A DNA stretch of 64,000 bases from contig JAHLLQ010000004.1 in assembly GCA_020444065.1 (NCBI GenBank), positions 124,001-188,000 on the forward strand, read 5' to 3'. Position numbers and translations under genes: made by a program. Below, piece by piece: positions 23,420-54,529 of the stretch. Source of the stretch: a bacterium. Lineage in GTDB: Bacteria > Sumerlaeota > Sumerlaeia > SLMS01 > JAHLLQ01. Every line of letters begins with the position of its first letter. The first letter of the stretch is position 1. The notes under the pieces are model-generated. The model did no database searches. It was not told where the DNA came from and worked only from the letters and a program-made list of their open reading frames with translations.

Positions 23420-25999
23420 TTAGAGCTCCACAACCACGCGGAATCCCACATCCGCTTCTTGCTGATCCGGCTGAATCTGCATTCGCGATGCACAACGGCA
23501 GGCTGCAGCGGAAGACTTGTATCCGCCGCCACGGATCACACGATAGCTGCCGCTCGGCGGTCCCGTCCAATCCTCCAGGTTACCGCCCGGAAGTCTGGGC
23601 GCATAGTAATCGCGCGTCAGCTCCCAGACGTTTCCATGAATGTCGTACAATCCCCAGGCATTCGGCGGGAAGCTCTTCACCGGCACTGTTATGCCTCGGT
23701 ACGTCGAACTTGCGGCGCCGGGGTACGATTTCGTTCCATCGAAATTGACGACCTCACTGGAGATGATGGGTCCGTAAGTGAAGGGCGACTGGCGGCCCGC
23801 GCGGCAGACATATTCCCACTGTGCCTCCGTGGGCAGACGGAACGTGATTCCTGTTTCACGCGATAGGATTCCACAGAATTGCTGCGCTTCGTTCCACGAG
23901 ACGCCGGTAACGGGATGGTCCAGATTGGGTTCATCGCCCAATCCACCGCCCATAACATGGCGCCATTCGGCCAGCGTGATCTCCGACTCACTGACGTAGA
24001 ACGGTTGCGTCAGATTCACCGCGGTCAGCGGACCTTCATCATCCCCGCGACCTTTTTCGGAAAGCTGCGATCCCATCAAGACTTTGCCGGCGGGAATCTC
24101 AACCATGTTCAGGACCAACTTATCTGACAGCGGGACCTTGAAGACATTGTATGTCGGCGCCAATGTCGGCGTCGGCTCGAGCGGCAGCGGGGTCGGCGGC
24201 GGCGTTGGCGTCGGAGTCGGCCGCGCGGGCTCTGGAGTCGGCGTTGGTTGCGGTCCGGGCAACTGGGTGGAGTTCCCCTGAGCGATCTCTTCTCCGGATG
24301 AATCGCCATCTTGGTTATTCGTCAGCGTCATCACCGACACAACCGTCGCAGTGACCAAGAAGGCGATCACGACAACGGCGACAATGATGAGATACCGCAT
24401 CACGCGGTTGTCTTCTTTTTCTGCCGCCCGCATCTCCGTCGGGAAGATCGCTTCGGGCATCGACGACGAGAACGGCGCACTCGTGGAACTGCTTCCTGAA
24501 GAAGAACCACTTCCCGAACCCGGCATGCTAAGCGTCGGGAAGCCATCCAGCCCATTGCTTTCTTCCGCCTCCGCTGCCATCTCTTCCAGCGCGCGACGGC
24601 GCTTCGCCGCATTGCGGAATGCCGAGTCTTCTGCAGAACCGTACCCCGAGTCCGAATCTGCATCGCCGCTTGTTGGGAAATCCGTCACGCCCGAGGAAAC
24701 ACTGCCTGTCATGACAGCCGAAGACGAGGACGAGTATCCTGCCACCGAGTCTGCGAGCGTCTCCTTCGGTTCTGATTCCGGCTCCGATTCGGGGGACGGC
24801 ACTGGTGTCTTTGGCGTCTCCTCCGACTCGGGCTCTTTTTCTTCCTCGTCGGTCGGTATCAGGTTCCGCTTAAAGATGGGATCCAGACCGTCATCCGATT
24901 TGTCTGTTCGTTCTTCCGCCTTCTCTTCTGGCTTCTCTTCCGCCGGTTCCTCTTCAGGAATCGTCGCGGGCCGGTCGGATGCCGACCAGTGGAACTCCAC
25001 CTCGGGGATCGGTTCGATCTCGGGCGCTGAATCATCTTCGGGCTCAGGCGTGTCTTCTTCGGGCACCGGAGTCGGCAATCCCGCCTGCATGATCTTGCCC
25101 GACGGCAGCAGCACGAGATCTGCGTCCCCGGCGCGCTGAATCGTCGATAGCGCCTCGGCCAGTTCGCCGGCCGATGCAAATCGATCGCCGGGCTTCTTGG
25201 CCAGGCAGCGCATGATGACTTCGCCGAGAGGACGATGAAGTCCTGGATTCAACTCGTAAGGCGACTCCGCCTTCTCGTTCACGTGCTTCATGCACACCGT
25301 GATGTCGTTCGGATCGCTGAAGGGCGGTTGTCCTGTCGCCATGTGATACAACGTGCAGCCCAATGCGTACAGATCCGTTCGTCCGTCCAGTTCGCGGTTC
25401 AGAATCTGTTCCGGCGACATGTAGGCCACTGTTCCAAACACAGTGCCTGTCGCTGTTCTGCCGGTGGCGGATTCGGACTTCGCGATCGAGAAATCGAGCA
25501 GCTTAACGTGGCGATCTTGTGTGACGAAGATGTTGGCCGGCTTGATATCGCGATGCAGGATGCCGCGCGAGTGTCCATACTCCAGCGCGCGGGCTACGGC
25601 CGCCCCGATTTCGCAGATCCACTCGCTCTTAATTGTGCGCCCGTGAATTGTCTCCACGACGTCGGTCAGGGCGCCGAGCTTCTGCTTCGGCACTTTCTGG
25701 CTGAGCAAGCGCGAAAGCGGCTGCCCCTCCAGCAGTTCCATAATTAGATAGATTGCAATGTCGTCGCGATAGACGTCGAAGAGGGTAACAATGTTCGGGT
25801 GACTGAGACGCGCGATGGTCAGCGCCTCGTCCTCAAGGCGCCCCGGGTCGATGCCCTGTTCTTCCGATTCGGCGAGGTTACAGGTCTTGACGGCGACGAA
25901 CCGCTGGAGCTTCGGCTGCCACGCCTTATAGACACGACCCATCGCTCCTCGGCCAATGACCGAGTCCGCCGTGAGGCCTGGTGGCATTTGAACATCCAT
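23420..25999 (-). CDS. Transmembrane Ser/Thr protein kinase fused to a formylglycine-generating-enzyme-like domain
   Basis: An 859-residue fusion. Residues 14-285 form a Hanks-type kinase: Gly loop IGRGAMGRVY, Lys38 in VAVK, HRDIKPAN at 149-156 and YMSPEQI. The Mg-binding DFG triplet reads DFS (169-171), keeping the Asp. A disordered Pro/Glu/Ser stretch spans 300-530, one transmembrane helix is at about 534-556, a Pro/Thr stalk follows (to about 612), and a C-terminal FGE/SUMF1-like domain covers about 628-859 (RLPTEAQWEY, HGNVWELTRDYY, RVIRGGGY). The kinase is cytoplasmic and the FGE-like domain outside. No Cys pair like that of active aerobic FGE is obvious, so it may be a binding module. 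Start: ATG at 25999 or 26032; neither has a clear ribosome site. First gene of a minus-strand run through pabB. Confidence 0.88.
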   Translation of the reverse strand: MDVQMPPGLTADSVIGRGAMGRVYKAWQPKLQRFVAVKTCNLAESEEQGIDPGRLEDEALTIARLSHPNIVTLFDVYRDDIAIYLIMELLEGQPLSRLLSQKVPKQKLGALTDVVETIHGRTIKSEWICEIGAAVARALEYGHSRGILHRDIKPANIFVTQDRHVKLLDFSIAKSESATGRTATGTVFGTVAYMSPEQILNRELDGRTDLYALGCTLYHMATGQPPFSDPNDITVCMKHVNEKAESPYELNPGLHRPLGEVIMRCLAKKPGDRFASAGELAEALSTIQRAGDADLVLLPSGKIMQAGLPTPVPEEDTPEPEDDSAPEIEPIPEVEFHWSASDRPATIPEEEPAEEKPEEKAEERTDKSDDGLDPIFKRNLIPTDEEEKEPESEETPKTPVPSPESEPESEPKETLADSVAGYSSSSSAVMTGSVSSGVTDFPTSGDADSDSGYGSAEDSAFRNAAKRRRALEEMAAEAEESNGLDGFPTLSMPGSGSGSSSGSSSTSAPFSSSMPEAIFPTEMRAAEKEDNRVMRYLIIVAVVVIAFLVTATVVSVMTLTNNQDGDSSGEEIAQGNSTQLPGPQPTPTPEPARPTPTPTPPPTPLPLEPTPTLAPTYNVFKVPLSDKLVLNMVEIPAGKVLMGSQLSEKGRGDDEGPLTAVNLTQPFYVSESEITLAEWRHVMGGGLGDEPNLDHPVTGVSWNEAQQFCGILSRETGITFRLPTEAQWEYVCRAGRQSPFTYGPIISSEVVNFDGTKSYPGAASSTYRGITVPVKSFPPNAWGLYDIHGNVWELTRDYYAPRLPGGNLEDWTGPPSGSYRVIRGGGYKSSAAACRCASRMQIQPDQQEADVGFRVVVEL

Positions 26000-26260
26000 A
26001 AATCGCCCAGAAGCCCGCGCCCAGTTTCGCATCTGGCCGGCGCTTTTTATTCTCTCTAGTCATCTTGCGGTGTCAGCAAGAAACGAGCAAGGCAATACCG
26101 CGCCGCAAGCAGGATTCTGCATTTGCCAGACCACCGGGCACCTGGACCGCGTCAAAACACCCGCTCACAGGCGACGACGGACTTGACGCACCTGACAAGG
26201 TAGAGAACACTCTCTTTACCGAAATCGAACTGCTCTTCTTCCAACAATTGGAGGCTCAGA

Positions 26261-53170: not shown

Positions 53171-54529
53171 CTAATCCCCTTCTGCGTCCAGTGCATTCTC
53201 GATGAAGTTGGCCAATGCCATCAAAGATTCGTCGGAGTGTTTGAACATCTGATACTGACGCAGGGAGCGTGGTAGATCTCTGGGCTCCATCCCGTCGATA
53301 TAGGAGAATACGTGGCCCGCCGGTTTCAGACCACTCCGAATATCATTGATGAAGCCGCTCCACTCGGACTCAACCCACCTCGATTCCAGGTGCTCTCTCG
53401 AGGTTCCGACGGCAACGACTACCATGGCGGCATCAAGCGCGCGATCAATGGCTTGCTGATACGCCGAGGCGCCCATCTTCTCGAGCGAGACGCTGCTCAG
53501 AAATACCTTGAAGCCCCTGGCGGTAAGGTAGTCGTAGAGCGTACGGGCCAGTTGGCTGTCTCTGGTCTGCCGTCCATTCGCATCGAGATTCTTGAAGGAA
53601 ATGAAGACTTGATGGTCGGAATCTGAAGTTCGGGTGCTGGCACGAGTCTTCTCTTCGAGAGGTCGCGTGCCCGGCGCGGGGGATTCGGACTGGAACGTTC
53701 CCAGCAGGCTTTCTATCTCATCCATACAGGCCGATGCGGATGGGAAGCGGGCGTCGGGATTCTTCGCCAGAAGCTTATCGATCAGGTATTGGCACTGTCT
53801 GTGTCGGGATGGCAGGGAGGGAACAGGTTCTCTGATGTGCATCTTAAGCACTTCGATCGGAGTCTTGTCGTCGAAAGGCTTCGTTCCAGTCAGCATCTCG
53901 TAGATTGTAATTCCCAGATTGTAGAGATCGCTGCGCCCATCGATGTCCGACCCTCCACGGATCTGTTCCGGACTCATATAGTGTTCGGTGCCCGCGTACC
54001 AACCGGTGATGCGGTCCAAATCACTCGTCACGACTTCACGGGTATAGCCGCTGAGCATTGTGCTTCTCGTAGCATCAAACCAGACGTTGCTCGGTTTGAC
54101 ATCCCGATGAACCAGACCCCTGCCGTGGATGTACTCCAACGCGCGACAGATATCTTTGGCGACTTCAAGGGTCTGGGGAACTGCAATGCTCCCTTGATCG
54201 AGTCCTTGCGAGAGCGTCCCTCCGTATGGATAGGCAGCAATATAGAAAGGGGTCCCATCATACTCGCCGACGTCATAGACTGGAACGATGTTTGGGTGAT
54301 TGAATCCTGCAGCAGTGTCCCCTTCATTTTTGAATCGCTCCTCCTCGTCTCTGAACGCCCCCTGGCGGCTCTTCTCAGGGGGGCGAAAAGCGTGAATTCG
54401 CGAAATCTTCAAGACCACTCGTCTGTCGTAGCGCTCATCGATCGCCTCGTAGGCCTCGTGCAATCCTTCGGTCGCCATGTGCGACCCGATGCGATAGTGG
54501 CCCAGTCTGGTGTCCTTTGGGATCGTCAT
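53171..54529 (-). CDS. Degenerate Ser/Thr kinase fused to a C-terminal TIR-like domain
   Basis: A 452-residue fusion. Residues 9-275 follow the Hanks kinase fold: Lys41 in VVLKIS, HRDVKPSN at 141-148, YMSPEQI at 184-190 and DGRSDLYNLGITIYEMLTG. The Gly loop is lost (MATEGLHEAY where LGEGGMGEVY is expected), and the Mg-binding DFG aligns with Ser-Gly-Tyr (160-162). It is therefore probably a pseudokinase or an atypical kinase. A polar linker (280-304) leads to a TIR-like domain (about 306-440): VFISFKNLD, LARTLYDYLTARGFKVFLSS, and WVESEW, where a Glu could be the NADase catalytic residue. No signal peptide or membrane helix is visible, so it is cytoplasmic. It stands alone in an AT-richer stretch. 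Its role in signalling or phage defence is inference. Confidence 0.85.
   Translation of the reverse strand: MTIPKDTRLGHYRIGSHMATEGLHEAYEAIDERYDRRVVLKISRIHAFRPPEKSRQGAFRDEEERFKNEGDTAAGFNHPNIVPVYDVGEYDGTPFYIAAYPYGGTLSQGLDQGSIAVPQTLEVAKDICRALEYIHGRGLVHRDVKPSNVWFDATRSTMLSGYTREVVTSDLDRITGWYAGTEHYMSPEQIRGGSDIDGRSDLYNLGITIYEMLTGTKPFDDKTPIEVLKMHIREPVPSLPSRHRQCQYLIDKLLAKNPDARFPSASACMDEIESLLGTFQSESPAPGTRPLEEKTRASTRTSDSDHQVFISFKNLDANGRQTRDSQLARTLYDYLTARGFKVFLSSVSLEKMGASAYQQAIDRALDAAMVVVAVGTSREHLESRWVESEWSGFINDIRSGLKPAGHVFSYIDGMEPRDLPRSLRQYQMFKHSDESLMALANFIENALDAEGD

Follow-up and report, generated by a model that had tools for sequence, protein, structure and literature searches.

A predicted pseudokinase-TIR fusion protein encoded among housekeeping genes of a Sumerlaeota bacterium

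Introduction

TIR enzymes are common to bacterial, plant and animal immunity, and it is the sensor that differs. In SARM1, RUN1 and several bacterial NADase TIR proteins, the sensors are ARM/SAM repeats, NLR, STING or Argonaute. To our knowledge, none of the NADase TIRs SARM1, RUN1, AbTIR, SpbK, TIR-STING and SPARTA uses a kinase fold.

Antiphage TIR and TIR-like NADases have been established in bacteria (PMC12847820, PMC13174449), and inactive kinase domains have been reported in bacterial conflict systems (PMC7159879). The vWA-MoxR conflict systems resemble the protein described here in that they contain kinase domains with disrupted catalytic residues and also deploy TIRs (PMC7159879). In those systems, however, the kinase is the effector and vWA and MoxR genes are present, whereas neither gene was found beside the gene of this study. 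No pseudokinase-TIR or kinase-TIR protein was found described in the literature searched, which covered few of the subscription journals, and a TIR protein with a predicted pseudokinase partner domain may be a variant without description in that literature.

Results

The DNA analysed is a stretch of 64,000 nucleotides, called the window below. At 53171..54529 on the minus strand it carries a gene with an ATG start that encodes a protein of 452 aa, composed of an N-terminal kinase domain and a C-terminal TIR domain. Pfam places Pkinase on aa 27-267 (E 2.3e-31) and TIR_2, which passes the curated cut-off, on aa 308-429 (E 7.9e-9), and because of these E-values the two are not chance matches. Together with the sequence search, the structure model and Foldseek, the Pfam result delimits a Hanks-type (PknB-like) domain of about aa 7-275 (53705..54511, minus strand). 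The TIR domain, delimited by TIR_2, the model and Foldseek, covers aa 306-452 (53174..53614, minus strand). Between them lies a linker rich in Pro, Ser and Arg (aa 276-305; 53615..53704, minus strand), around which model confidence was low; no hydrophobic stretch of membrane-helix length was seen in it by eye. The GC content of the gene is 0.554, the lowest among the window genes measured (mean of the others 0.607, sd 0.015), which fits acquisition from elsewhere.

The kinase and TIR parts were modelled separately with AlphaFold. For the kinase part (pLDDT 78.7, pTM 0.82), the best Foldseek matches were PknB and PknA, and the closest solved structure by sequence was mycobacterial PknB (E 2.9e-41). 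The Hanks kinase fold proposed in the initial annotation thus finds agreement among the Pfam, sequence, model and Foldseek results. The changed motifs were located in an HMM alignment that also contained 34 kinase domains from elsewhere in this genome and the five TIR-kinases described below. The Gly loop, roughly LGxGGxGxVY in the other kinases of the genome, is MATEGLHEAY here (aa 18-27; 54449..54478, minus strand). Set against the canonical LGxGGxG, M18-A19-T20-E21-G22-L23-H24 has Ala19, Glu21 and His24 in place of the three canonical glycines. The loop had been annotated as having lost its glycines; that holds for the canonical positions, but one non-canonical glycine, Gly22, remains. The model places a beta hairpin (E12-21/E24-31) at this degenerate loop.

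The DFG Asp is present in all 34 of the other aligned kinases of the genome, as DFG, DWG, DMG or DFS, whereas the window protein has Gly161-Tyr162-Thr163 at this site (54041..54049, minus strand). The initial annotation had been right that the Asp is lost, but its alignment of DFG with Ser160-Gly161-Tyr162 lay one column too early. The rest of the protein showed no other candidate for a DFG motif or a Gly loop. The parts that had been listed as kept are indeed retained in the alignment: the beta-3 Lys41 (54407..54409, minus strand), His141-Arg142-Asp143, Pro187-Glu188 and Asp201. Glu69, Lys145, Asn148 and Arg261 are retained as well, and the catalytic loop HRDVKPSN (aa 141-148; 54086..54109, minus strand) is intact. 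Pseudokinases are defined by loss of the beta-3 Lys, the HRD Asp or the DFG Asp (PMC12599244). Since the DFG Asp is replaced by Gly161 in a domain that has the kinase fold, the window kinase domain is, by sequence, a pseudokinase. Only the Gly loop and DFG have suffered losses, a pattern suggestive of a retained regulatory fold rather than of a dying gene.

The TIR part was modelled confidently as a TIR-like fold (pLDDT 87.5, pTM 0.85), so that both the model and the TIR_2 match bear out the second domain. Its best Foldseek matches were SARM1 TIR structures (E 2.8e-7), with TIR-STING, SPARTA and RPP1 lower. The WVESEW segment, which had been pointed out as a possible site of a catalytic Glu, lies at aa 385-390 (53360..53377, minus strand), and the TIR alignment and a profile search identify its second Glu, Glu389 (53363-53365), as the predicted catalytic residue. 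Glu389 is invariant across 49 aligned TIRs. Used as a profile, this 49-TIR alignment matched PDB structures of TIRs including RUN1 and AbTIR. In the match to RUN1, its Glu column coincides with the Glu of SRWCLDEL (WCLDEL), which, by counting along the construct, would be the NADase residue Glu100. The TIR fold and the catalytic Glu column are common to the window TIR and those of SARM1, RUN1, AbTIR, SpbK, TIR-STING and SPARTA TIR-APAZ. With the TIR fold, the TIR profile and a Glu at the WxxxE position all present, the window protein may cleave NAD+ via Glu389.

Upstream of the fusion gene lies a gene pair for a 2-oxoacid dehydrogenase complex, the acyltransferase gene adjoining the fusion gene. 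A P-type ATPase gene lies downstream, and metabolic and housekeeping genes are found farther out on both sides. A genome of the same family (G002) retains this dehydrogenase pair, but neither the fusion gene nor the ATPase gene comes after it. Among the neighbours we recognised no partner gene of Thoeris, SPARTA or CBASS-TIR (ThsA, Argonaute, CD-NTase). PADLOC gave no match for nine window proteins, mostly close neighbours of the fusion gene. The pseudokinase matched the PADLOC model of PD-T4-6, a single-kinase phage defence system, with E 9e-58, but an ordinary kinase encoded elsewhere in the window scored better (5.5e-80). The match therefore indicates a kinase only, and membership in PD-T4-6 was not accepted. 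This control kinase (23420-26032) is an ordinary PknB-type kinase with DFS for DFG, its Asp being kept, and by eye has a formylglycine-enzyme-like C-terminal domain. The defence setting suggested in the initial annotation was not borne out; with housekeeping neighbours and neither a defence island nor a partner gene, a defence role is unproven.

Relatives of the window TIR were found neither in the 39 other genomes of the same phylum that were searched nor in the plasmids, phages and viral contigs searched. A Streptomyces plasmid match that seemed to extend into the TIR was only a kinase by Pfam, with no TIR. A scan of genome contigs, for which two artificial consensus rows served as bait and the matches of which were confirmed by tblastn with the window TIR, gave 54 TIR loci in Planctomycetota, many Clostridia and Bacilli, Burkholderiales, Verrucomicrobiota and others. 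Three candidates (L019, L021, L022) were rejected as weak matches in or across unrelated genes. The fusion partners in this TIR clade are methyltransferase, WGR, HD-CE and Ser/Thr kinase domains. Inspection by eye added GNAT-like domains and repeats of BspA type. The closest TIR domains are those of L027 and L028 of Planctomycetota (61% and 58% identity to the window TIR). Unlike the window protein, these two proteins have no kinase; their TIR is joined to a second TIR-like domain (two TIR_2 stretches in each protein), in L028 after a putative membrane region.

The clade was found in three of the 392 Planctomycetota genomes surveyed, and one of these genomes (G476) encodes a kinase-TIR protein of 609 aa, L123. 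L123 is the only relative found with the same domain order, kinase at the N-terminus and TIR at the C-terminus, and its alignment with the window protein covers both domains (30% identity, E 1e-59). Its TIR belongs to the same clade and has WVEAEW. It differs from the window protein in that DFG, HRD and Lys are intact, the Gly loop is only partly changed (IAMGGRG), an extra N-terminal region is present, and the two TIRs are not joined in the tree. No close homologue of the window protein was found that could show whether the pseudokinase state is conserved.

Five proteins of Clostridia (L067, L069, L070, L072, L075) combine TIRs of this clade with PknB-like kinases, as the window protein does, but in the reverse order, with the TIR at the N-terminus. 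Kinase motifs are intact in four of the five. The fifth, L067, is by sequence likewise a pseudokinase and a more degenerate one, with the Gly loop IKHDGMS, HRD changed to QRF and DFG to SYD. A survey of 391 genomes of the class to which the L075 genome belongs added nothing to the TIR-kinase sub-clade. A tree built from 53 TIRs unites the window TIR with the kinase-free L027 and L028 (support 96/94). The clostridial TIR-kinases occupy two other positions, and L123 forms a long branch of its own, the placement of the long branches (L123, L069) being unsure. Because the TIR-kinases are scattered over the tree, TIR and kinase domains were probably joined several times independently.

Genes around three of the clostridial proteins were also inspected. 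Downstream of the TIR-pseudokinase gene of L067 (7989-12138) are genes for a vWA protein, a PP2C phosphatase and a kinase. This set is similar to the kinase-PP2C-vWA gene sets reported beside GTPase conflict systems (PMC7159879). L075 (165-5547) is a row of three genes encoding a protein with a C-terminal TIR, a TIR-FHA protein and the TIR-kinase, which suggests a TIR system read via phosphothreonine binding. In L070 (943-9998), the TIR-kinase gene lies a few genes from those of a Card1-like endonuclease, an AAA ATPase and conjugation (T4SS coupling).

Discussion

The kinase domain lacks the residues that would bind the phosphates of ATP and a catalytic metal, and thus it probably does not carry out ordinary phosphorylation. 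What then does it do beside a TIR domain with a candidate catalytic Glu? We infer, at slightly under even confidence, that the protein is a soluble one-protein switch in which the pseudokinase, as sensor or scaffold, controls a TIR NADase, possibly via the active kinases of the cell. The kinase fold would act in sensing or as a scaffold for docking, and would keep the C-terminal TIR switched off. The trigger may be a nucleotide, a signal of stress or of an invader, or one of the many Ser/Thr kinases active in the cell. Its binding would cause a shape change or dimerisation, by which TIR domains would be brought together, and the assembled TIRs would cleave NAD+ via Glu389. The outcome might be killing or arrest of the cell, or an ADP-ribose signal.

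The sensing could also reside in another protein. The pseudokinase would then be the substrate or adaptor of an active kinase and receive phosphate on its activation segment or linker, so that the partner senses and the TIR acts downstream as the enzyme. We consider this somewhat unlikely, although the genome, with 43 kinase-like matches including the window gene, has roughly 40 kinases available for such a role, and the activation segment (TGWYAGTEHYMSPE) and the Ser/Thr-containing linker are kept in the window protein. L067, moreover, adjoins kinase, PP2C phosphatase and vWA genes. These neighbours and the TIR, TIR-FHA and TIR-kinase row of L075 point to phospho-signalling, and such contexts keep the partner-kinase reading alive. 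Against it, no kinase or phosphatase gene was found beside the window gene, and the nearest recognised kinase in the window is about 27 kb off.

Since Lys41 and the HRD Asp are retained, residual or unusual catalysis is conceivable, and the domain might be an atypical active enzyme that transfers phosphate or another group despite Gly161, with the TIR as a regulatory or docking domain. CASK transfers phosphate with GFG, and the kinase folds of SelO and SidJ transfer other groups. Retention of Glu69, Lys145 and Asn148 together with Lys41 and Asp143, the intact DFG of the same-order relative L123, and the bacterial pseudokinases with altered chemistry that have been reviewed (PMC12599244) are in its favour. 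Yet the losses affect both the DFG Asp and the canonical glycines of the Gly loop, and a pure docking domain would not need the invariant Glu that the TIR retains; this explanation is unlikely. The same Glu bears on the idea of a signalling scaffold, in which TIR-TIR assembly alone, with no NAD+ cleavage, would serve ordinary non-defence signalling. Many TIR domains are adaptors, and the housekeeping surroundings of the gene would suit such a role, but Glu389 is invariant throughout a clade of several phyla and the best structural matches are the SARM1 NADase TIRs, which makes a scaffold quite improbable. It is also conceivable that a recently acquired kinase-TIR gene is heading for loss. Its low GC content and the fact that no other genome searched in the phylum has it would agree with decay; the open frame is full-length, however, the TIR with its Glu and the fold core are intact, and the loss is limited to two functional motifs, so that we give this very little credence.

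If the pseudokinase does control the TIR, a kinase-derived sensor would be a new way to switch TIR enzymes, and the Ser/Thr kinase networks of bacteria, which are large in such genomes, would be connected with death or signalling based on NAD. TIR and kinase domains have been paired repeatedly, apparently independently, and in two cases the kinase looks dead. A broader proposal, that a kinase fold without ordinary catalysis gates a TIR enzyme in at least two independent cases, the window gene and the clostridial L067, as a bacterial counterpart of pseudokinase-controlled cell death, is tentative and on balance doubtful.

Other TIR proteins were seen in the course of this work. The genome that carries the fusion gene has three more TIR_2 matches (G000:C2:482-841, G000:C6:27813-28151 and G000:C1:768040-768423), two of which pass the curated cut-off; the search with the window TIR recovered none of the three. 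The related C-terminal TIRs of L017 (370-1878), L121 and L124 are preceded by an N-terminal Nudix-box-like stretch (GWNIANGG...IERELREEL), which in L017 had no Pfam match. At many loci among L033-L061, N-terminal TIRs carry a SAM methyltransferase as fusion partner and others carry a GNAT-like domain, and these arrangements are common in the contigs of Clostridia and Bacilli.
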